A DNA stretch of 64,000 bases. Source: Palleronia sp. LCG004 (lineage in GTDB: Bacteria; Pseudomonadota; Alphaproteobacteria; Rhodobacterales; Rhodobacteraceae). The position numbers and the translations under genes were made by a program. Below, piece by piece: positions 12,913 through 25,494 of this stretch (positions are counted from its first letter, which is position 1; every line of letters begins with the position of its first letter). The notes beneath the pieces were generated by a model that was not told where the DNA came from, made no database searches, and saw only the letters and a program-made list of their open reading frames with translations. Where the stretch lies: positions 2,422,501-2,486,500 of the forward strand of contig NZ_CP136759.1 of NCBI RefSeq assembly GCF_032931615.1, read 5' to 3'.

Positions 12913-14367
12913 TCAAACCCCGCTCACTGGGATGCCCGACCGCTCCACCGGGCGCGGCGCGCTGATGGCCTTCCAGGACGAAAGCGCCTCGCTCACCGGG
13001 CCTTTCGGCGGGCGCTTGACGAACTGGCCATGGCCTTCTTCGGGGCGCATCTCGCCGTCATGCACCGCCACGCGGCCGCGCGTCAGGGTAAAGCGCGGCA
13101 GGCCCTTCACCTTCTGTCCTTCGAAGACGTTGTAGTCGATCGCGGATTGCTGGCTCTCCGCCGTGATCGTCTTCTCCTTGGCGGGGTCCCATACGACGAT
13201 ATCGGCGTCCGATCCGACAAGGATCGCACCCTTGCGCGGATAGCAGTTGAGGATCTTGGCGATATTGGTCGAGGTCACGGCCACGAACTCGTTGGGCGTG
13301 AGCCGTCCGGTCTCGACACCATGCGTCCAGAGCATCGGCATCCGATCCTCGAGCCCCCCGGTCCCGTTGGGGATCTTGGTGAAGTCGCCCAATCCCGTCC
13401 GCTTCTGATCCGTCGTGAAGGCGCAGTGATCGGTCGCCACGACCGACAGCGATCCGGCCTGCAACCCGGCCCAGAGGCTTTCCTGATGCTTCTTGTTGCG
13501 GAAGGGCGGCGACATCACGCGGCGCGCGGCATGGTCCCAGTCTGCGTTGAAATACTCGCTCTCGTCGAGCGTCAGATGCTGGATCAGCGGCTCGCCCCAG
13601 ACGCGCTTGCCCTGCTGGCGCGCGCGGCGGATGGCCTCGTGGCTCTCTTCGCAGGAGGTGTGCACGACATAGAGCGGCACGCCCGCCATGTCGGCGATCA
13701 TGATGGCGCGGTTCGTGGCCTCCCCCTCGACCTGCGGCGGGCGGGAATAGGCGTGCCCCTCGGGCCCGGTATTGCCCTCGGCCAGCAGCCGGGCCGACAG
13801 GTCCGCGACCACGTCGCCGTTCTCGGCATGGACGAGCGCGATGCCCCCGAGCTCGGCCAGGCGCTGGAACGAGGCATACATCTCGTCGTCCTGCACCATC
13901 AGCGCGCCCTTGTAGGCCATGAAATGCTTGAACGTGTTGATGCCACGGTCGCGCACGACCGTCTCCATCTCGTCGAAGACCTGCTCGCCCCACCATGTCA
14001 CCGCCATGTGGAAGGAATAGTCGCAATGCGCGCGCGTCGACTTGTTGTCCCACATCTTGAGCGCGTCGAGCAGCCCCTGCCCAGGCGAGGGCAGCGCGAA
14101 ATCGACGACCATGGTGGTCCCGCCCGCGAGCGCCGCACGCGTGCCGCTTTCGAAATCGTCGGCGGAATAGGTGCCCATGAAGGGCATCTCGAGATGGGTA
14201 TGCGGGTCGATCCCGCCCGGCATGACGAAGCACCCGTCGGCGTCGAGCACCTCGTCGCCCTTCAGGTCGGGCCCGATCTCGACGATCTTTCCGCCGTCGA
14301 TCAGCACGTCGGCGGCATAGCTCAGGTCGTGGGTCACGACGATGCCGTTCTTGATGACTGTGGTCAT
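12913..14367 (-). CDS. hydA: Dihydropyrimidinase (D-hydantoinase)
   Basis: The 484-residue zinc amidohydrolase opens the ring of 5,6-dihydrouracil or dihydrothymine to the N-carbamoyl beta-amino acid, the second step of reductive pyrimidine catabolism. The metal ligands HTH are in GGIDPHTHLEMPF, the carbamylated-lysine region is TFKHFMAYKGALMVQDDE, and later His and Asp ligands lie in LVHAENGDVV and ATDHCAFT. Length is standard. The ATG has GAGGCACCC upstream. It follows the M20 amidohydrolase gene after a 400-base gap with repeats. Confidence 0.95.
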   Translation of the reverse strand: MTTVIKNGIVVTHDLSYAADVLIDGGKIVEIGPDLKGDEVLDADGCFVMPGGIDPHTHLEMPFMGTYSADDFESGTRAALAGGTTMVVDFALPSPGQGLLDALKMWDNKSTRAHCDYSFHMAVTWWGEQVFDEMETVVRDRGINTFKHFMAYKGALMVQDDEMYASFQRLAELGGIALVHAENGDVVADLSARLLAEGNTGPEGHAYSRPPQVEGEATNRAIMIADMAGVPLYVVHTSCEESHEAIRRARQQGKRVWGEPLIQHLTLDESEYFNADWDHAARRVMSPPFRNKKHQESLWAGLQAGSLSVVATDHCAFTTDQKRTGLGDFTKIPNGTGGLEDRMPMLWTHGVETGRLTPNEFVAVTSTNIAKILNCYPRKGAILVGSDADIVVWDPAKEKTITAESQQSAIDYNVFEGQKVKGLPRFTLTRGRVAVHDGEMRPEEGHGQFVKRPPKGPVSEALSSWKAISAPRPVERSGIPVSGV

Positions 14368-14770: not shown

Positions 14771-16030
14771 TCACCCTTCGACGCCCGCCGTCTCGATCAC
14801 GGCGTGGAGCAGGACATCCGCCCCGGCCTTGGCCCAGTCCTTGGTGATCTCCTCGGCCTCGTTATGGCTCAGACCGTCGACGCAGGGGCACATCACCATG
14901 GCGGTGGGGGCCACGCGGTTGATCCAGCAGGCATCGTGACCGGCACCCGAGACGATGTTCATGTGGCTGTAGCCCAGACGCTCCGCCGCGTCGCGCAGCG
15001 CCGTCACGCAGCCCTCGTCGAATGCCACCGGGTCGAAATGGCCCGCCTCCTCGATCTCGATCCCGAGGCCGAGCTCGGCGGCGATCGCCGGTGCGGCCTC
15101 TTCGAGCGCGGCCTTCATGCCGTCGAGCTTTCCGAGGTCGGGCGAGCGGAAGTCGATGGTGAAGACCGCCTTGCCGGGGATCACGTTGCGCGAATTGGGA
15201 TAGACGTCGATATGGCCCACCGCGCCCACCGCATCGGGCTGGTTCGCCATCGCGATCTCGTGGACCTTGTCGATGATCCGCGCCATGCCCAGGCCCGCAT
15301 TGCACCGCAACGGCATCGGCGTCGATCCGGTATGCGCGTCCTTGCCGGTCAGCGTCACCTGCAGCCACCAGAGACCCTGTCCATGGGTCACGATGCCGAT
15401 CTGCGTATCCTCGGCCTCGAGGATCGGGCCCTGCTCGATATGCAGCTCGAAGAAGGCATGCATCTTGCGCGCGCCGACCTCTTCCTCGCCTTTCCAGCCG
15501 ATCCGCTCGAGCTCGTCTCCGAAGCTCGCCCCGCTGGCATCGGTACGTCCGTAGGCCCAGTCCTGATCGTGGATGCCCGCGAAGACGCCCGAGGACAGCA
15601 TGGCGGGCGCAAAACGCGTCCCCTCCTCGTTGGTCCAGTTGGTCACGACGATCGGATGCTTCGTCCGGATGCCCAGATCGTTCATCGTGCGCACGATCTC
15701 GAGCCCGCCCAGAACGCCCAGAACGCCGTCGTACTTCCCGCCGGTGGGCTGCGTGTCGAGATGCGATCCCACATAGACCGGCAGCGCCTCGGGGTCGGTC
15801 CCTTCGCGACGGGCGAACATGTTCCCCATCCGGTCCACCCCCATCGTGCAGCCCGCATCCTCGCACCAGCGCTGGAACAGGGCGCGGCCCTCGGCATCGG
15901 CGTCGGTAAGGGTCTGGCGATTGTTGCCGCCCGCCACGCCCGGCCCGATCTTGGCCATCTCCATCAGCGAGTCCCAGAGCCTGTCACCGTCGATCCTCAT
16001 GTTCTCGGCGGGGGCGGCGGGCTGGCTCAT
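14771..16030 (-). CDS. Zn-dependent M20 amidohydrolase (beta-ureidopropionase / N-carbamoyl amino acid hydrolase)
   Basis: The 419-residue protein probably hydrolyses N-carbamoyl-beta-alanine to beta-alanine, CO2 and ammonia, the third step of reductive pyrimidine degradation. M20 metal sites are visible in YVGSHLDTQPTGGKYDGVLG, TNWTNEEGTRFAPAM and FFELHIEQGP. Related members act on allantoate or hydantoin products, but context favours the pyrimidine role. The start at MSQPAAPAEN has GAGGAG six bases upstream. A RutR-like operator lies 31 bases before it. Confidence 0.88.
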   Translation of the reverse strand: MSQPAAPAENMRIDGDRLWDSLMEMAKIGPGVAGGNNRQTLTDADAEGRALFQRWCEDAGCTMGVDRMGNMFARREGTDPEALPVYVGSHLDTQPTGGKYDGVLGVLGGLEIVRTMNDLGIRTKHPIVVTNWTNEEGTRFAPAMLSSGVFAGIHDQDWAYGRTDASGASFGDELERIGWKGEEEVGARKMHAFFELHIEQGPILEAEDTQIGIVTHGQGLWWLQVTLTGKDAHTGSTPMPLRCNAGLGMARIIDKVHEIAMANQPDAVGAVGHIDVYPNSRNVIPGKAVFTIDFRSPDLGKLDGMKAALEEAAPAIAAELGLGIEIEEAGHFDPVAFDEGCVTALRDAAERLGYSHMNIVSGAGHDACWINRVAPTAMVMCPCVDGLSHNEAEEITKDWAKAGADVLLHAVIETAGVEG

Positions 16031-16060
16031 GGCTGGCTCCTCGAATGTGTTAACGGCTAT

Positions 16061-16076
16061 TTGACCAATCGGTAAA
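16061..16076 (-). promoter_or_regulatory. RutR-like operator before the M20 amidohydrolase
   Basis: The minus strand reads TTTACCGATTGGTCAA, an imperfect palindrome close to the E. coli RutR site TTGACCAnnTGGTCAA. It shares 13 of 16 positions with the site upstream of preT. It lies in the divergent region between the amidohydrolase and the TetR regulator genes. Confidence 0.6.
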
Positions 16077-16189
16077 ACGAAGGCTAACAGAGGGTCGAAA
16101 CCAGTCAAGGATCACGATGAGAATGCCGGCGGATGCACAAAGAACGGGCGTATCGCACGGGTCAGGCCGGTTGATTGACCGTTCGCAAC

Positions 16190-16804
16190 ATGGCTGAGAC
16201 CCGCATCCAGTCGCGCAATCGCGCGGCCATCCTCGACGCGGGCCTCGAGGTCTTTTCGCGCCGCGGATTCGGCGGTGCGACGCTCGACCAGATCGCGGCC
16301 GAAGCGGGGCTGTCGAAGCCCAACCTGCTCTATTACTTTCCGTCGAAGGAGGCGATCCACCGTGATCTTCTCCTCGGTCTGATGGGGGCCTGGCTCGACC
16401 CGATGCGCCGCATCGACCCGGAGGGAGAGCCGCTGGACGAGATCATGGGCTACGTCCGGCGCAAGATGGACCTGACCCGCCATTATCCGCGCGAAAGCCG
16501 CCTTTTCGCAAACGAAATCCTCCAAGGCGCGCACCATATCGACGACACGCTCGGCGGCGAATTGCGGGATCTCGTCGACCGGACCGCCGCGTTGATCCAG
16601 GGCTGGGTCGATCGCGGCCGCCTTGCGCCCGTCGATCCGCACCACACCATCATCTCGGTCTGGGCGCTGACCCAGCATTACGCCGATTTCGACGTGCAGG
16701 TCCGTGCGGTCCTCGGCGACGCGGATCCACTCCTGCGCGCCGAGGCCCATGTCGAGCAGCTCTTCCGCCGGCTCCTCACGCCGCCGGCGGACAGTACGCG
16801 CTAG
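16190..16804 (+). CDS. rutR: TetR-family regulator, RutR-like
   Basis: The 204-residue repressor has an N-terminal helix-turn-helix (residues about 10-55, TLDQIAAEAGLSKPNLLYYF) and a TetR C-terminal domain resembling RutR (HYPRESRLFANEILQGAHH). RutR binds uracil or thymine and derepresses pyrimidine-catabolic genes. It is divergent from the amidohydrolase and convergent with preA, with one base between the stop codons. No good ribosome-binding site precedes the ATG; an in-frame TTG at 16175 is an alternative start. TTGACCGTTCGCAA just upstream (16175-16188) is a degenerate match to the operators and could mediate autoregulation. Confidence 0.8.
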   Translation: MAETRIQSRNRAAILDAGLEVFSRRGFGGATLDQIAAEAGLSKPNLLYYFPSKEAIHRDLLLGLMGAWLDPMRRIDPEGEPLDEIMGYVRRKMDLTRHYPRESRLFANEILQGAHHIDDTLGGELRDLVDRTAALIQGWVDRGRLAPVDPHHTIISVWALTQHYADFDVQVRAVLGDADPLLRAEAHVEQLFRRLLTPPADSTR

Positions 16805-16805
16805 C

Positions 16806-18110
16806 TCATTCAGCGGCGATCGCGCCGGGATTGTTCGGATGCGTCGTCCAGTCGGCCGGCTCCTTCTCGACCGTCCGGCCGGTGCGCGGATCGACGGCTC
16901 CGGGTTCGAGCACTTCCATCGTGATGCAGTTCTCGACCGGGCAGACATCCACGCAGAGATTGCAGGCCACGCATTCGTCGTCCTTCACGGTGAAGGTACG
17001 GTCGGCAGACATCGCGATCGCCTGGTGCGACGTGTCCTCGCAGGCGGCGAAGCAGCGTCCGCACTTGATGCAATCGTCCTGGCTGATCCGGGCCTTGGTC
17101 ACGTAGTTGAGGTTCAGATACTGCCAGTCGGTGACATTCGGGACCGCGCGGCCCACCACCTCGGACACGCTGGAATACCCCTTCTCGTCCATCCAGGCCG
17201 ACAGCCCCGCCTTCATTTCCTGCACGATGCGAAAGCCGTAGGTCATCGCGGCGGTGCAGACCTGCACGTTGCCGGCCCCGAGGCTCATGAACTCTGCCGC
17301 GTCGCGCCATGTGGTGATGCCGCCGATCCCCGAGATCGGCAGGCCGCGCGTCTCGGGGTCGCGGGCGATCTCGGCCACCATGTTCATCGCGATGGGCTTG
17401 ACCGCCGGGCCGCAATAGCCGCCATGCGTGCCCTTCCCGTCGATCATCGGCTCCGGTGACATCGTGTCGAGATTGACCGACGTGATCGAGTTGATCGTGT
17501 TGATCAGGCTCACCGCATCCGCGCCGCCGTTCTTCGCCGCGAGGGCCGGCTTGCGGATATCGGTGATGTTGGGCGTCAGCTTCACGATCACGGGGCGGTC
17601 GTAGTACTGCTTGCACCACCGCGTGACCATCTCGATATATTCCGGCACCTGCCCCACGGCCGATCCCATGCCGCGTTCGGCCATCCCGTGCGGGCACCCG
17701 AAATTGAGCTCGATCCCGTCGGCCCCGGTCTCCATCACGCGCGGCAGGATCGACTTCCAGGCCTCCTCCTCGCAGGGCACCATGATCGACGCGATCAGCG
17801 CCCGGTCGGGCCAGTCGGCCTTCACCCGCGCCATTTCCTCGAGGTTCGTCTCCAGCGGCCGGTCGGTGATCAGCTCGATATTGTTGATCCCGAGCACGCG
17901 CCTGTCGGCCCCGTGGATCACGCCGTAGCGCGGCCCGTTGACGTTGACGACCGGCGGCCCCTCGGCCCCGAGCGTCTTCCACACGACGCCGCCCCAGCCG
18001 GCCTCGAAGGCGCGGCGGACATTGTATTCCTTGTCCGTCGGCGGCGCGGAGGCGAGCCAGAACGGGTTGGGCGATGTGATGCCCAGGAAATCGGTCGTCA
18101 GATCAGCCAT
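16806..18110 (-). CDS. preA: NAD-dependent dihydropyrimidine dehydrogenase, subunit PreA
   Basis: The 434-residue FMN/iron-sulfur subunit reduces uracil or thymine to the 5,6-dihydro form with electrons from PreT, the first step of reductive pyrimidine degradation. The dihydroorotate-dehydrogenase-like barrel contains the catalytic cysteine in ELNFGCPHGM. The C-terminal ferredoxin domain has two CxxCxxCxxxC clusters (CIKCGRCFAAC and CVACNLCVDVC). Length is near that of bacterial PreA, with a C-terminal extension ending NNPGAIAAE. It follows the glycosylase gene by 71 bases and is probably in the preT operon. Confidence 0.95.
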   Translation of the reverse strand: MADLTTDFLGITSPNPFWLASAPPTDKEYNVRRAFEAGWGGVVWKTLGAEGPPVVNVNGPRYGVIHGADRRVLGINNIELITDRPLETNLEEMARVKADWPDRALIASIMVPCEEEAWKSILPRVMETGADGIELNFGCPHGMAERGMGSAVGQVPEYIEMVTRWCKQYYDRPVIVKLTPNITDIRKPALAAKNGGADAVSLINTINSITSVNLDTMSPEPMIDGKGTHGGYCGPAVKPIAMNMVAEIARDPETRGLPISGIGGITTWRDAAEFMSLGAGNVQVCTAAMTYGFRIVQEMKAGLSAWMDEKGYSSVSEVVGRAVPNVTDWQYLNLNYVTKARISQDDCIKCGRCFAACEDTSHQAIAMSADRTFTVKDDECVACNLCVDVCPVENCITMEVLEPGAVDPRTGRTVEKEPADWTTHPNNPGAIAAE

Positions 18111-18181: not shown

Positions 18182-18964
18182 CTAGCCCTGATGCGTCGCG
18201 CAGTGATAGGCCGAGCGTCCGCCGACCTTCTTCATCGCGATCGTACCGCCGCAGCGCGGGCAATCGGCCCCCTCGTCGCGGCGATGGATCAGCCAGTCCT
18301 CGGGCAGATCCGAATACTGCGCGCCGGTGTCGAGCACGCCCTGCAGCACGTCGCGCATCGTGCCGTGCAGATCGCCGAGCCGGTTGCCGCCCAGATCCGT
18401 GCCCGCCTCGTCCGGCGCGATCCCACATTGGAACAGCGCCTCGTCCGACCAGAGATTGCCGATCCCGGCGAGCTTCTTCTGGCTCAGCAGCGCGGATTTC
18501 ACTGCGCCCCTGCTGCCGCCGATCCGCTCGGCGAAGGTCTCGCCGTCGATCTCCATCGCGTCGGGCCCGAGCCCCCGGTGGGCGACGAAGGCGTCCACGT
18601 CGTCGGTCACGCGGACCCATCCGAATTTGCGCGGGCAACGATAGCTGAGCCGCCGCGCACCCTCGAAGACGAAGGTGATCCGCGTGTAGTCCGGCGTCGT
18701 GTCGTCGCCGTCATGAACCCTCAGCGACCCGCTCATTCCCAGATGCACGACGATCCACGGGCCAGTGGCCGAGCCCACGAAGATGTATTTCCCGTGCCGC
18801 CGCGTCTCGGTGAACTGGCCGCCGACAAAGCGCGCGCGCTCTTCCTCCGACGGCAGGTCCAGATGGGTCACGTCGGTGCCGAGCCGAACCTCCACGACGG
18901 TCCGGTTCAGCGCGCCGTCCTCGACGCGCCTGCGATTCGCCTCGGCCTCGGGCAATTCAGGCAC
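18182..18964 (-). CDS. Fpg/Nei-family DNA glycosylase-like protein in the pyrimidine operon
   Basis: The 260-residue protein has the formamidopyrimidine-glycosylase fold: catalytic N-terminus PELPEAE, hairpin lysine in RRHGKYIF (Lys59), helix-two-turn-helix region LSQKKLAGIGNLWSDEALF, and a C-terminal zinc finger. I chose a GTG start because the family needs Pro as first residue after Met removal; GAGAGGA lies five bases before it, while the ATG two codons upstream would bury the proline. The finger is C-x2-C-x16-C-x2-H (Cys235, Cys238, Cys255, His258) rather than four cysteines, with Arg250 kept. The gene overlaps the preT stop by eight bases and precedes preA. Activity and substrate are unproven. 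Confidence 0.85.
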   Translation of the reverse strand: MPELPEAEANRRRVEDGALNRTVVEVRLGTDVTHLDLPSEEERARFVGGQFTETRRHGKYIFVGSATGPWIVVHLGMSGSLRVHDGDDTTPDYTRITFVFEGARRLSYRCPRKFGWVRVTDDVDAFVAHRGLGPDAMEIDGETFAERIGGSRGAVKSALLSQKKLAGIGNLWSDEALFQCGIAPDEAGTDLGGNRLGDLHGTMRDVLQGVLDTGAQYSDLPEDWLIHRRDEGADCPRCGGTIAMKKVGGRSAYHCATHQG

Positions 18965-20327
18965 GCGCATCCTCTCCGATGACCGCACCGGTAGGGTGGA
19001 CCGCCGCATCCATGAGCGTCGCATGGATGTCCTCGGCCGCGTCGCGACCCTCGGCCACGGCGACAACGGTCAGATCGTCGCCGCCGGTGCAATCGCCCCC
19101 GGCCCAGACCCCGTCGACCGAGGTGCGCCCGGCCCCCGTCACGCGGATCTTCCGACCGTCGAGTTCGAGCCCCCGATAGGTCAGGACCTGACCGATCGCC
19201 TTGAAGACCTGATCGGCCGGCAGCCGCAGCTTCTCGCCCGTTCCCCTGAGGCCAGTACCGTCATCGGCGGTGTATTCCAGCTCGATCTCCGCCGCCGCGC
19301 CGTTGCCGTGCACCGCCACGGGCTGCGCGTTGAAGATGATCCTGACGCCCTTGGAAGTGGCGAGGTTCTGCTCGAATTCCGACGCGCCCATCCGCGACTT
19401 GTCACGGCGATAGGCGATCGTCACGTTCTCGGCCCCGAGCAGCTTCGACTGCACCGCGACGTCCACCGCAGTCATGCCGCCGCCGATCACGACCACGTTG
19501 CGCCCGACGGGCAATGTCGTCAGGTCGTCGGCCTGGCGCAGCGCCGCGATGAAGCCCACCGCATCCATCACCCCGTCACGATCGGCCCCCTCCGCATCGA
19601 GATCGTTGACCCCGCCGAGGCCCACGCCCAGGAACACCGCGTCGTAATCGCGCCGTAGATCCCCGAGGTCGAGATTCGTTCCCAGCGCCGAGTTGGGCCG
19701 AAGCTCGATCCCGCCGATCCCGCACAGCCACTCGACCTCGCGCGCGGCGAAATCGTCGGTGGACTTGTAGGCGGCGATCCCGAATTCGTTGAGCCCGCCG
19801 GGCTTGTCCTTGGCGTCGTGCAGCACGACGTCGTGGCCCCGCATGGCGAGCCTGTGCGCACAGGCAAGACCCGCAGGCCCCGCGCCCACCACGGCGACGC
19901 GCTTGCCCGTCGCCTCCGCCCGGCGGAACGGATGGCCCTGTCGCGCCATCAGGCTGTCGGTCGCGTGGCGCTGCAGGCGTCCGATCTCGACCGGCTTGCC
20001 CTCGGCCGCCTCGCGCACGCAGGCCCCCTCGCAGAGATCCTCGGTCGGGCAGACCCGCGCGCACATGCCGCCCAGAATGTTCTGATCCATGATCGTCTGC
20101 CCCGCCGCTTCCGGCTGGCCGGTCGCGATCTGCCGGATGAAAAGGGGGATGTCGATCTCGGTCGGACAGGCCGTGACGCAGGGCGCGTCATAGCAGAAAT
20201 AGCAGCGATCGGCCGCGACCGCCGCCTCGTGCGGATCGAGCGGCCTGTGAAGATCGGCGAAGTTCTCGGCGATCTCGTCCCGGCCCAGACGGCCGGCCAC
20301 GATACCCGGGGTCATGGAATCTGGCAT
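18957..20327 (-). CDS. preT: NAD(P)H-oxidising subunit of dihydropyrimidine dehydrogenase, PreT
   Basis: The 456-residue flavoprotein resembles the glutamate synthase small subunit and feeds electrons to PreA. The N-terminal half holds cysteine motifs for Fe-S clusters (CYFCYDAPCVTACP and CARVCPTEDLCEGAC). A first dinucleotide fold follows at VAVVGAGPAGLACAH, and a second at VVVIGGGMTAVDVA. The start MPDSMTPGI has AGGAGG four bases upstream. It is the first gene of the preT-glycosylase-preA unit, with a RutR-like palindrome 50 bases before the ATG. Confidence 0.93.
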   Translation of the reverse strand: MPDSMTPGIVAGRLGRDEIAENFADLHRPLDPHEAAVAADRCYFCYDAPCVTACPTEIDIPLFIRQIATGQPEAAGQTIMDQNILGGMCARVCPTEDLCEGACVREAAEGKPVEIGRLQRHATDSLMARQGHPFRRAEATGKRVAVVGAGPAGLACAHRLAMRGHDVVLHDAKDKPGGLNEFGIAAYKSTDDFAAREVEWLCGIGGIELRPNSALGTNLDLGDLRRDYDAVFLGVGLGGVNDLDAEGADRDGVMDAVGFIAALRQADDLTTLPVGRNVVVIGGGMTAVDVAVQSKLLGAENVTIAYRRDKSRMGASEFEQNLATSKGVRIIFNAQPVAVHGNGAAAEIELEYTADDGTGLRGTGEKLRLPADQVFKAIGQVLTYRGLELDGRKIRVTGAGRTSVDGVWAGGDCTGGDDLTVVAVAEGRDAAEDIHATLMDAAVHPTGAVIGEDARA

Positions 20328-20376: not shown

Positions 20377-20392
20377 TTTATCAAACGGTAAA
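20377..20392 (-). promoter_or_regulatory. RutR-like operator before preT
   Basis: The minus strand reads TTTACCGTTTGATAAA, closely matching the site before the amidohydrolase gene and the RutR palindrome. It lies in the A/T-rich divergent region between preT and the UbiB-family gene. Confidence 0.6.
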
Positions 20393-21818: not shown

Positions 21819-24002
21819 TCAATCCAGATACGGAAAGATCTTGTCCGGCGTCGCGGGGTAGTCGTAGACCCTCACGCCGCAGGCATTGTAGATCGCGTTG
21901 GTGACCGCGGCACCGGCCCCCGAGAGGCCCAGCTCGCCGATGCCCTTGATCTGCATCGGGTTCGCCTGGTCGTCGCGCTCTTCCACGAAATGCACCTCGA
22001 GGTCCGGCACGTCGAGATTGACCGGCACGTGGTACTCGGCAAGGTCGTTGTTGACGATGTGACCCGTGCGGGGATCGTGCTGGATCTCCTCGGTCAGCGC
22101 GCCGCCGATGCCCCAGATCTGGCCGCCCCAGACCTGGCTGCGCGCGGTCTGCGCGTTGAGGATCCGGCCTGCCGACATGGCGGCCAGCATCCGGCGCACG
22201 CGCACCTCGCCCGTCACCTTGTTGACCGCGACCTCCGCGAAATGCGCTCCGAAGCCCGACTGCTCGAAATCGTTCGAGGTCGATCCGGGCTCGATATGCC
22301 CCTCTTCGGTGATGGGTCCGTCCATCAGCTCGGCCAGCGGCCGGCGATTGTTGGCCCCCGTCGCCACGCCGTCCTGAAGGCGCAGCTCCTCGGGCGAACA
22401 GCCCAGCCGCTCGGCCAGCTTCTTGCGGATGCCCTTCGCACCCAGGAAGACCGACGAGCCGGCCGATGCCGCACCCCAAGATCCACCCGAGCCCGACGCC
22501 TCTGGCAGCTCGGTATCGCCGAGCTCGACCGTGACCTTGCTCGGGTCGATCCCCAGCATCTCGGCCGCGATCTGGCCGAGAATGGCATAGGTGCCGGTTC
22601 CGATATCGGTCATGTCCGTCTGGACAAGCGCCGTGCCGTCGGGGTTCAGCGTGACGTTGGCGCGGCTCTCCATCAGAACGTTGCTGCGCGCGGCCGAGCC
22701 GACGCCCATACCCACATACCATTCACCCTCGAGCCGCTCCTTGGTGCCCTTGCGCTCGGACCAGCCGAACATCTCGGCCCCCTCGCTCAGACATTGCGCG
22801 AGCGCGTTCGAGGAAAACGGCAGACCGCTTTCCGGCGATTTTTCGGGCACGTTGCGGATGCGGAACTCGACCGGGTCGATGCCCGCCGCCTCAGCAAGCT
22901 CGTCCATCGCGTTCTCGAGCGCGAGCTGCCCCACGGCCTCGCCCGGCGCGCGTACGGCCCCGGAGGCAGAGCGGTTGAGCCGCGCGATGTGCTGGCCATA
23001 CCGGCGGTTCTCGCCGCCATAAAGGAAATGCGTCGCCACATCGACAGGCTCGGCCATCGATTCGCCCGGCAGGTTGGTTTGCCAGTTCTCGTGACCGATC
23101 CCGGTAAGCTTGCCGTCCGCATCGCAGGCAAGCCGCACGCGCTGCTTCGTCTCGGTCCTGAGCGTGATCATCTCGAAGACGTTGTTGCGGTGCAGGACCA
23201 CGCGGACCGGCCGCCCGAGTTTCTTCGCCGCGACCGCGGCCGCCACGCATTCGGGCGAGATCCCGAGCTTCGATCCGAACCCGCCGCCGACATATGGCGA
23301 CAGGATGCGGACGTTCTTGGCGTCGATCCCGAGCGAATCCGCCAGCTCGTTGCGGTTGAAGCCAAGCATCTGCAGCGAACCGCGCAGCGTGACCTTGTCA
23401 CCGTCCCAGTCGGCGACGGCCGCATGAGGCTCCATCGCCGCGGAATTGTGCGGCTTGGTGGTATAGGTCGAATCGATGCTGAACGCGGCATCCGACATCG
23501 CCTTGTCGAGATCACCGATATCGACCGGATCGTCGTCGTCCTCGAACTCCGACGCATCGTCCATCACCGTCTTCGCGCCGTCCTCGGCCGTGTAGGTCAC
23601 CTTGAGAGATTGCGCGATGTCGCGCGCCTGCTCGAAGGTTTCGGCCACGGCGACCGCGATGGGCTGGCCGAGGTAATGCACCTCGCCTTCGGGCTGAACG
23701 GGGTTCGTGCCCATCGTGCCCTGCGCCGAGTTGCGCACCATCCGGTCGGTATAGATGCCGAGGAACCCGGGCATGTCCCTGACCGACGCCTCGTCGATCT
23801 TGCATTTGCCCTTGGTGATCGCGGCCCGCACCATCACCCCTTCGGCGAGGTCGGGTGCACTCCACTCGGCCGCGTAACGCGCGGTACCCGAGACCTTCAG
23901 CGGACCCTCGGGACGCGTCATGGGCTTGTGGATCGCGCCCTGTCCGGTCTCGTCCAGCATGCGCGGCTGGACATTGTCCATCTTGAGATGTTCGGTCATC
24001 AC
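21819..24002 (-). CDS. paoC: Molybdenum hydroxylase large subunit, PaoC-like aldehyde oxidoreductase
   Basis: The 727-residue subunit holds the molybdopterin cofactor of a xanthine-oxidase-family enzyme. It shows the GGGFGSKLG cofactor motif, [14 protein letters not shown], and the active-site Glu in GIGELG (Glu690). It resembles PaoC (YagR) of the E. coli aldehyde oxidoreductase, which oxidises aromatic and other aldehydes. Its start overlaps the paoB stop by four bases. No XdhC/PaoD-type chaperone gene is adjacent. The exact substrate is not predictable. Confidence 0.85.
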
Positions 24003-24967
24003 GAAGCTCCCGTCAGTTCGCCCAGCACCGCCTTCAACGTGCGACGCGCGAGCGGTATCTTGAAATCGTTGTCGCCATGGCCCTTCGCATCGGCCAGCAG
24101 CACGTCGGCCGCCTTGTCGAAAAGCGCCTCGGACGGGGCTTCGCCCACCAGCACCTCCTCCACGGCCGTGTCGCGCCAGGGACGCGGCGCGAGCCCGCCG
24201 AAGGCCAGCGCGGCCTCGGTGATCTTGCCGCCCTGCGTCTCGACGATGCCTGCCACGGAAACCAGCGCGAAGGCATAGGACGATCTGTCACGCACCTTGC
24301 GATAGGTCTGACGCCCCTTCGGGGCCGTCGGCAGATGCACGGCGGTGATCAGGTCGCCGGGATTCAGGACCGTCTCGACCGACGGATCGTCGCCCGGCAG
24401 CACGTAGAACTCGTCCATGGTCAGAAGCTCGGTGCCACGATCGACCGAGTCGATCTCGATCCGCGCATCGAGCGCGCGCATGGCGACCGCCATGTCGGAC
24501 GGGTGCGTCGCGATGCACTTGTCGGATGCCCCCAGCACGGCGAGGATGCGGTTGGCCCCCTCCATCGCCTGGCAGCCCAACCCCGGCTCGCGCTTGTTGC
24601 AGGCCTGCGTGGTGTCGTAGAAATACGGGCACCGCGTGCGCTGCATCAGGTTGCCGCCCGTGGTGGCCTTGTTCCTCAGCTGGCCCGTCGCGCCGGCAAG
24701 CAGCGCGCGGCTCAGGACGGGATAGTCGCGCCTGACGCTCTCATGCGCGGCAAGCTCGGAATTGGTCACGAGCGCGCCGATCCTCAGGGAGTTCTCGGCC
24801 TGCTCCACCTCGGTCATGTCGAGACGCGTGACATCGACGAGGGTCGACGGTGTCTCGATCTGGTGTTTCATCAGGTCGAGCAGGTTGGTCCCGCCCGCGA
24901 TGATCCTGCCACCGGCTTCCTTGACGCCGGCCGCATCGCTTGCGCGGACATAATCGAACGGTTTCAT
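23999..24967 (-). CDS. paoB: Molybdenum hydroxylase FAD-binding subunit, PaoB-like
   Basis: The 322-residue protein is the FAD-binding subunit. The FAD site is [13 protein letters not shown] near residue 23. An insertion [15 protein letters not shown] ending in GLGC supplies cysteines for the extra [4Fe-4S] cluster known in the PaoB and 4-hydroxybenzoyl-CoA reductase groups; this supports the PaoABC assignment over ordinary xanthine dehydrogenase. It overlaps paoA upstream and paoC downstream by four bases each. Confidence 0.88.
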
Positions 24968-25494
24968 TCGGCGGCCTCCGTTCCGGTGTTGCGTTCCTCG
25001 GGCGCGGCTTCCTCGATCGCCGCGCAGATGCCCGGATAGGCCGAGCAGCGGCAAAGGTTCCCGCTCATCCGTTCGCGGATCTCGGTGCGACTGAAATCGG
25101 GAACGGCGGTCAGGTCGTCTGACACGTTCGACGGCCATCCGAGGTCGAACTCGGCCATCATGCCCTTGGCCGACATGATCTGGCCGGGCGTGCAGTACCC
25201 GCACTGATAGCCGTCGTTCTGGACGAAGGCGCGCTGCAGCGGCGACAGCGATCCGGGCTGTCCCACCCCTTCGATCGTCAGGATCTCGTCGCCCTCGTGC
25301 ATCACGGCAAGCGTGAGGCAGGCGTTGATCCGGCGTCCGTTCAGAAGGATGGTGCAGGCCCCGCACTGACCGTGGTCGCAGCCTTTCTTGGACCCCGTCA
25401 GTTCGAGATGGTTGCGAAGCGCATCGAGAAGTGTGGTGCGCGGATCGATGTCGAGGTCGCGATCCTCGCCATTCACGTTCAGCGTTAATTTCAT
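24964..25494 (-). CDS. paoA: Molybdenum hydroxylase [2Fe-2S] subunit, PaoA-like
   Basis: The 176-residue subunit carries two [2Fe-2S] clusters. The N-terminal plant-ferredoxin-like site is [22 protein letters not shown], and the C-terminal four-helix site is QCGYCTPGQ with [10 protein letters not shown]. Unlike E. coli PaoA, it has no twin-arginine signal peptide: the protein begins directly with [13 protein letters not shown]. The complex is therefore probably cytoplasmic here. AAGGAA precedes the ATG by about six bases. Confidence 0.9.

Follow-up and report, generated by a model that had tools for sequence, protein, structure and literature searches.

The 64,000-nucleotide (nt) stretch of the Palleronia sp. 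LCG004 genome analysed here (contig NZ_CP136759.1, positions 2,422,501 to 2,486,500; hereafter the window) carries a gene for a predicted DNA glycosylase between preT and preA, which code for subunits of dihydropyrimidine dehydrogenase (DPD). We consider it fairly likely that this gene encodes a functional Fpg-type glycosylase/apurinic-apyrimidinic (AP) lyase and that it is an accessory gene of the preT–preA junction, made together with the enzymes of pyrimidine catabolism and under no need to act on the products of PreTA. The computed basis of this reading comprises the predicted fold, the kept residues, the loss of a loop, the overlap with preT, the occupancy of the junction in other genomes and the conflict between gene trees; from these we infer the activity and substrate range, co-transcription, control by a RutR-like regulator and the route of recombination. 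The central features of the locus are as follows.

18182..18964, minus strand: gene for an Fpg-type DNA glycosylase/AP lyase (predicted activity), 260 amino acids (aa), GTG start, no capping loop, CCCH zinc finger (from the open reading frame (ORF), Pfam/NCBIfam and alignment)
18957..18964, minus strand: overlap of 8 nt between the start of the glycosylase gene (GTGCCTGA) and the preT stop
18957..20327, minus strand: preT, dihydropyrimidine dehydrogenase small subunit (Fer4_20 and Pyr_redox_2)
16806..18110, minus strand: preA, NAD-dependent dihydropyrimidine dehydrogenase subunit PreA (NF006183, 723 bits against a cut-off of 335)

The minus-strand order is thus preT, glycosylase gene, preA. 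The glycosylase gene runs from a GTG codon (18962-18964) to a stop at 18182-18184, the preT stop occupies 18957-18959, and the preA ATG at 18110 lies 71 nt past the glycosylase stop; an earlier note, made from the sequence alone, had given this overlap and this gap correctly. An ATG two codons 5' of the GTG was rejected as the start, because Pro would become residue 4 and relatives begin at the GTG position. PreT, adjacent to PreA, has DPD domain II (Fer4_20 at 120 bits).

The product is predicted to be an intact Fpg-fold enzyme of the Fpg type rather than the Nei type. It passes the Pfam cut-offs for Fapy_DNA_glyco (PF01149, 83.6 bits against 25.5) and H2TH (PF06831, 56.2 against 34.7), and falls slightly below that for zf-FPG_IleRS (19.5 against 21.3). 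The highest NCBIfam scores come from the Fpg models (164 and 162 bits, below their cut-offs of 212 and 203.3), those of Nei2 and of Nei, the family of Escherichia coli endonuclease VIII, being 54.7 bits against 400 and a weak 41.7 against 252. Residue conservation was assessed among the nearest relatives, in an alignment of the window protein and 116 of its best-scoring relatives (117 of the best 120 of 2795 matches, three with an extra precomputed Pfam domain having been excluded). Pro2, presumably the N-terminal nucleophile, is found in 115 of the 117 rows and Glu3 in 116, while Lys59 and Arg250, which we take to be the hairpin lysine and the finger arginine, are invariant. The Pro-Glu N-terminus and hairpin lysine pointed out by the earlier note therefore hold. 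Its zinc finger is present as well, with Cys3His ligands and not four Cys: the motif is C-x2-C...C-x2-H, with Cys235, Cys238 and Cys255 in all 117 rows and His258 in 115. Fpg-like relatives on two Methanosaeta contigs, 40 and 32% identical, have Asp in place of the second finger Cys and His as the last ligand.

In all 117 rows a 10-residue segment replaces the loop that caps 8-oxoguanine (8-oxoG) in Fpg. The bacterial Fpg alignments shown require an insertion relative to the glycosylase at this loop, and the profile alignment with plant 3twk has a gap of one residue only. Arabidopsis FPG1/MMH-1 (PDB 3TWK, 3TWL and 3TWM) and plant/fungal Fpg are the top profile match and the top VIA-align match, and they share with the glycosylase the short loop segment, the Fpg-type N-terminus and the H2TH domain. 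Identity to Arabidopsis FPG is about 27%, the lead over MutM structures is small, and the plant and fungal enzymes have a zincless finger according to PMC3188539, whereas the window protein retains its Cys3His finger. Two results count against the likeness to plant FPG: in a single-sequence search the top PDB match was bacterial MutM 6tc6, with Arabidopsis FPG third and fourth, and Foldseek scores were nearly equal for the two groups.

With bacterial Fpg/MutM (E. coli 1K82, Geobacillus MutM, Lactococcus and Neisseria Fpg) the glycosylase shares the fold, as predicted here, and the Pro2/Glu3/Lys/Arg set; its HLGM and PRKFG motifs match, by motif, the sites of M77A, R112A and F114A in the titles of MutM entries. 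Unlike these enzymes, it lacks the capping loop, has His as fourth zinc ligand and stays under the NCBIfam Fpg cut-offs. Three further comparisons draw on PMC3188539. The window protein's Lys156/Asp174 pair, mapped by offset, is the state of the Fpg-side clades; the human NEIL2-type CHCC finger likewise has one His, at a different ligand position; and the BaFpg2 clade has a four-Cys finger, at odds with that of the window protein. Apart from its His-containing finger, NEIL2 (6vji, 43.5 bits) is only distantly related. The Nei-type identity that the earlier note had proposed is rejected on the profile scores together with the published Lys/Asp state. Among the open-licence papers that were found, judged mostly by title, opening of the abstract and term counts, no account was seen of a glycosylase tied to a preT/preA operon, nor of such an Fpg group in alphaproteobacteria.

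The enzyme is a second Fpg paralogue next to canonical MutM. The genome has one further Fapy-domain gene, that MutM, which is 25% identical in a local match and, judged by eye, has the full capping loop; a third such gene was not found, and the genome gave three matches to HhH-GPD. Among 17 relatives with the subfamily, 15 carry two Fapy domains, and the two with one are both metagenome assemblies. The glycosylase most likely excises formamidopyrimidine (Fapy) and hydantoin-type lesions, because the 8-oxoG capping loop is missing, as in plant FPG. E. coli Fpg cuts dihydrouracil in DNA (PMC8287915) and excises dihydrothymine (PMC3112496) and pyrimidine hydantoins (PMC3143120). By analogy, dihydrouracil and dihydrothymine are possible substrates, in an unspecific manner. 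Because E. coli Fpg itself has this activity, no special adaptation would be needed and the activity would not point to a dedicated role; a preference for dihydropyrimidines could be decided by kinetics only.

The preT–glycosylase–preA arrangement is not a matter of chance, as it recurs in 14 further operons. This makes 15 distinct linked operons including the window after repeats are dropped (L084 repeats L011, L088 repeats L025, and L002 and L083 repeat the window), and the 14 intact linked proteins all differ from one another. The start overlaps preT in 11 of the 15, by 8 nt in six and by 1 nt in five; in one locus, L089, a DedA/VTT-domain gene also lies between preT and the glycosylase. 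Linkage is nevertheless only part of the distribution. A scan of contigs gave, among the matches listed, 26 close relatives (L003-L028) in 80 kept loci. Eight of them lie between preT and preA, and 18 are unlinked, meaning that the fetched flanks, mostly 6 kb per side (about 0.6 kb downstream in L007 and 1 kb upstream in L016), hold no PreT/PreA match. PreA and PreT were searched for in the genomes of 17 of these 18 (all except L007): both were found in two and neither in 15 at E <= 1e-60, and the enzyme is therefore kept where PreTA is not found. Fourteen of the 15 are Erythrobacteraceae/Sphingomonadaceae, as judged from record titles or tree labels, and several are metagenome assemblies.

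In the family sample the gene was found at E <= 1e-50 in 10 of 394 genomes and PreT in 315. Eight of the ten have it in the preT–preA interval, that is, 8 of the 315 preT-bearing genomes, and 305 of the 315 gave no match to the gene at this threshold. In the class sample of 385 genomes, the only matches were in the genome of the window itself and in one other, at 40% identity. The comparison of neighbourhoods suggested by the earlier note thus gave a divided answer: linkage prevails among the family genomes that carry the gene, and in most relatives of the wider scan the fetched flanks show none.

What fills the junction elsewhere was examined in 80 glycosylase-free preT–preA intervals. They come from 80 of the 307 genomes that have PreT and no glycosylase gene in the slot, and were chosen among the higher-scoring PreT matches listed, which makes them a non-random sample; two of the genomes, G066 and G350, carry the glycosylase gene elsewhere. 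The interval is shorter than 350 nt in 60 and reaches at least 350 nt with an ORF in 20. Grouping by BLAST to one representative, with Pfam run on one representative per group, gave nine class-I methyltransferases (43-63% identical to their representative), three glycosyltransferases, four members of an unknown 160-171-aa family, one glyoxalase/VOC-type protein and three small unknown proteins. With starts assigned by the script's rule, at least five of the 20 overlap the stop of preT. In the congener G066 the slot is taken by the 160-171-aa family, and the glycosylase gene lies on a different contig. The position has the look of a slot for accessory genes, not of a functional module.

Some details of the other occupants may be recorded. 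The methyltransferases (L097, L099, L122, L132, L138, L139, L146, L154 and L163) weakly resemble sarcosine/dimethylglycine methyltransferase (65 of 550 bits); as pyrimidine breakdown ends in beta-alanine, they are candidate beta-alanine N-methyltransferases. Glycosyltransferases lie between the subunit genes in L115, L124 and L125, overlapping the preT stop once. The 160-171-aa family fills the gap in L095, L101, L106 and L107, and its representative, from L101, has no Pfam or NCBIfam match.

Phylogenetic analysis of 13 linked operons (LG+G4 and a quick tree; L090, which has a frame break, and L089, in which PreT is cut off, were left out) showed three conflicting histories: in approximately unbiased (AU) tests, the alignment of each protein (glycosylase, PreT, PreA) rejects the trees of the other two (p <= 0.0004), the parts of the operon having moved independently. 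A single acquisition with strictly joint inheritance thereafter is rejected on this conflict, and the junctions are likely exchange points of operon parts. On a PreT tree of 94 proteins (without L089), slot occupants other than the glycosylase cluster no more than shuffled labels. The Phe of the PRKFG motif is Leu in 61 of the 117 aligned sequences, and Phe at 114 is present in 11 of 14 linked rows versus none of 18 unlinked ones; we do not take this split as evidence, because the pattern tracks the tree.

Downstream of preA lie a regulator gene on the opposite strand, an amidase gene and a dihydropyrimidinase gene, and two operator-like sites are present.

16175..16804, plus strand: RutR-like TetR-family regulator (TIGR03613, 212 bits, below the cut-off of 368)
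14771..16033, minus strand: allantoate amidohydrolase/hydantoinase-carbamoylase family amidase, presumed beta-ureidopropionase step (NF006769, 704 bits against a cut-off of 452)
12913..14367, minus strand: dihydropyrimidinase/D-hydantoinase (TIGR02033, 595 bits against a cut-off of 393)
20377..20392, minus strand: operator-like palindrome TTTACCGTTTGATAAA, 49 nt upstream of preT
16061..16076, minus strand: degenerate palindrome copy TTTACCGATTGGTCAA with 2 mismatches, between the amidohydrolase gene and the RutR-like gene

From its sequence, the locus looks like an apparently complete reductive pyrimidine-catabolism set plus one gene foreign to the pathway. As in the preTA/hydantoinase operon with a RutR-like regulator, PreA, dihydropyrimidinase and amidohydrolase exceed curated cut-offs; unlike in the usual preTA operon, an unrelated gene stands between the two subunit genes. 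Of the 28 operons looked at, eight of which have the glycosylase, 27 carry the palindrome TTTACCNNTTGATAAA at 45-74 nt upstream of preT, without mismatch in 25 and with one and two mismatches in one each. Scanning the genome gave one match without mismatch and six further places with two mismatches, the reversed control pattern giving two; similar sites in the gap between regulator and amidohydrolase were seen in three of seven other linked loci scanned (L013, L015 and L020). According to PMC10891134 and PMC5343134, RutR has a palindrome of about 16 bp, and its motifs change by taxon. The palindrome is likely the operator of the pyrimidine operon and may be the site of the RutR-like regulator. 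Since the overlap with preT recurs in 11 of 15 operons and the palindrome in 27 of 28, the glycosylase is likely co-produced with PreTA, which supports the joint production expected in the earlier note. Genes resembling molybdopterin-type aldehyde oxidase/xanthine dehydrogenase, judged from their translations, adjoin the pre operon (window 21819-25494), and a large-subunit-like gene of this kind is also close to preT in L003 and L022.

These observations suggest the following scenario. In other family members the preT–preA junction takes in unrelated genes, probably through recombination across conserved flanks, and an incoming gene ends up behind the operon promoter, adjoining the preT stop. 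Because the junction puts it there, the glycosylase would be made whenever pyrimidine catabolism is switched on, and PreTA products need not be its substrates. As an Fpg-type bifunctional glycosylase/AP lyase, second to MutM, it would excise Fapy and hydantoin lesions, act on reduced or oxidised pyrimidines as Fpg enzymes usually do on the side, and cut the strand by beta,delta-elimination. A passenger under operon control is more likely than a partner of PreTA, because the enzyme persists in relatives in which the reductase was not found and, in other operons, unrelated genes fill this gap. Several points weigh against this reading. Where gene and PreTA occur in the same genome, there are 15 linked cases against two unlinked ones (L009 and L025), or three if the 41%-identical L092 is counted; this is more than a neutral passenger might be expected to show, yet the cases are not independent because they share ancestry. 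The glycosylase label, though scattered, is somewhat clustered on the PreT tree (10 changes, minimum 7, against a shuffled mean of 13.2, with 3 of 500 shuffles as low). Linked copies are basal in the subfamily on the maximum-likelihood tree, so linkage may be ancestral. The best tree points that way, but ancestral linkage could not be maintained as certain, because the AU tests do not decide: one clade for either group, linked or unlinked, is not rejected (p 0.216 and 0.367). Finally, the regulator scores below both curated RutR cut-offs (212 against 368 and 194 against 230 bits).

The earlier note had suggested that the enzyme may process reduced or oxidised pyrimidines arising from PreTA activity; as an enzyme dedicated to this, it would act on bases such as dihydrothymine or dihydrouracil that enter DNA through the nucleotide pool. 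The position in 15 operons, the linkage of 15 of 17 co-occurring copies and the activities of Fpg on dihydropyrimidines cited above are in keeping with such a dedicated enzyme. Against it stand the 15 of 17 unlinked genomes in which no PreT/PreA match was found, the unrelated genes in 20 of 80 gaps, the rarity of the slot copy among preT-bearing family genomes (8 of 315) and the Fpg-type rather than Nei-type identity, and we regard it as distinctly unlikely. A coupling to stress, in which oxidative damage rises through the iron-sulphur flavoprotein PreTA, or through a shift to growth on nucleic-acid bases, and the repair enzyme is co-induced whatever the lesion, would agree with the preT overlap, the palindrome and the 4Fe-4S and flavoprotein-type domains found by Pfam in preT and preA; it is unlikely in view of the 305 preT-bearing family genomes that would face the same stress without a match to the gene, and of the gene's presence where PreTA is not found.

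The least probable explanation is a near-neutral hitchhiker heading for loss. The patchy distribution (10 of 394) would fit it, as would the linked copy L090 (about 1416-1510), whose frame break near codon 29 is either a real loss or an assembly error. It conflicts with the near-invariant catalytic and zinc residues of the 117 sequences and with purifying selection, the ratio of nonsynonymous to synonymous substitution rates (dN/dS) being 0.21 against L003 and dN lying well below dS in all four pairs. We also find it highly unlikely that the operon forms a uracil-controlled repair-and-salvage module in which the loop-less Fpg frees ring-reduced or hydantoin bases, the operon's dihydropyrimidinase/hydantoinase opens them and the junction is a cargo site; if so, the cargo genes of the junction would be selected for expression under pyrimidine control.

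On the reading of an accessory gene under operon control, this is a real, well-conserved gene with two uncommon structural traits, whose chemistry would be ordinary. A bacterial Fpg group with no 8-oxoG loop and with a Cys3His finger offers a ready comparison with plant FPG. Nesting between the two subunit genes, even with an overlap in most of the linked operons, need not mean shared function, as is seen from the methyltransferases, glycosyltransferases and unknown proteins encoded at this junction in other genomes; this is a caution for annotation by association. The preT–preA junction is thereby a natural system for the study of how operons gain and swap internal genes.
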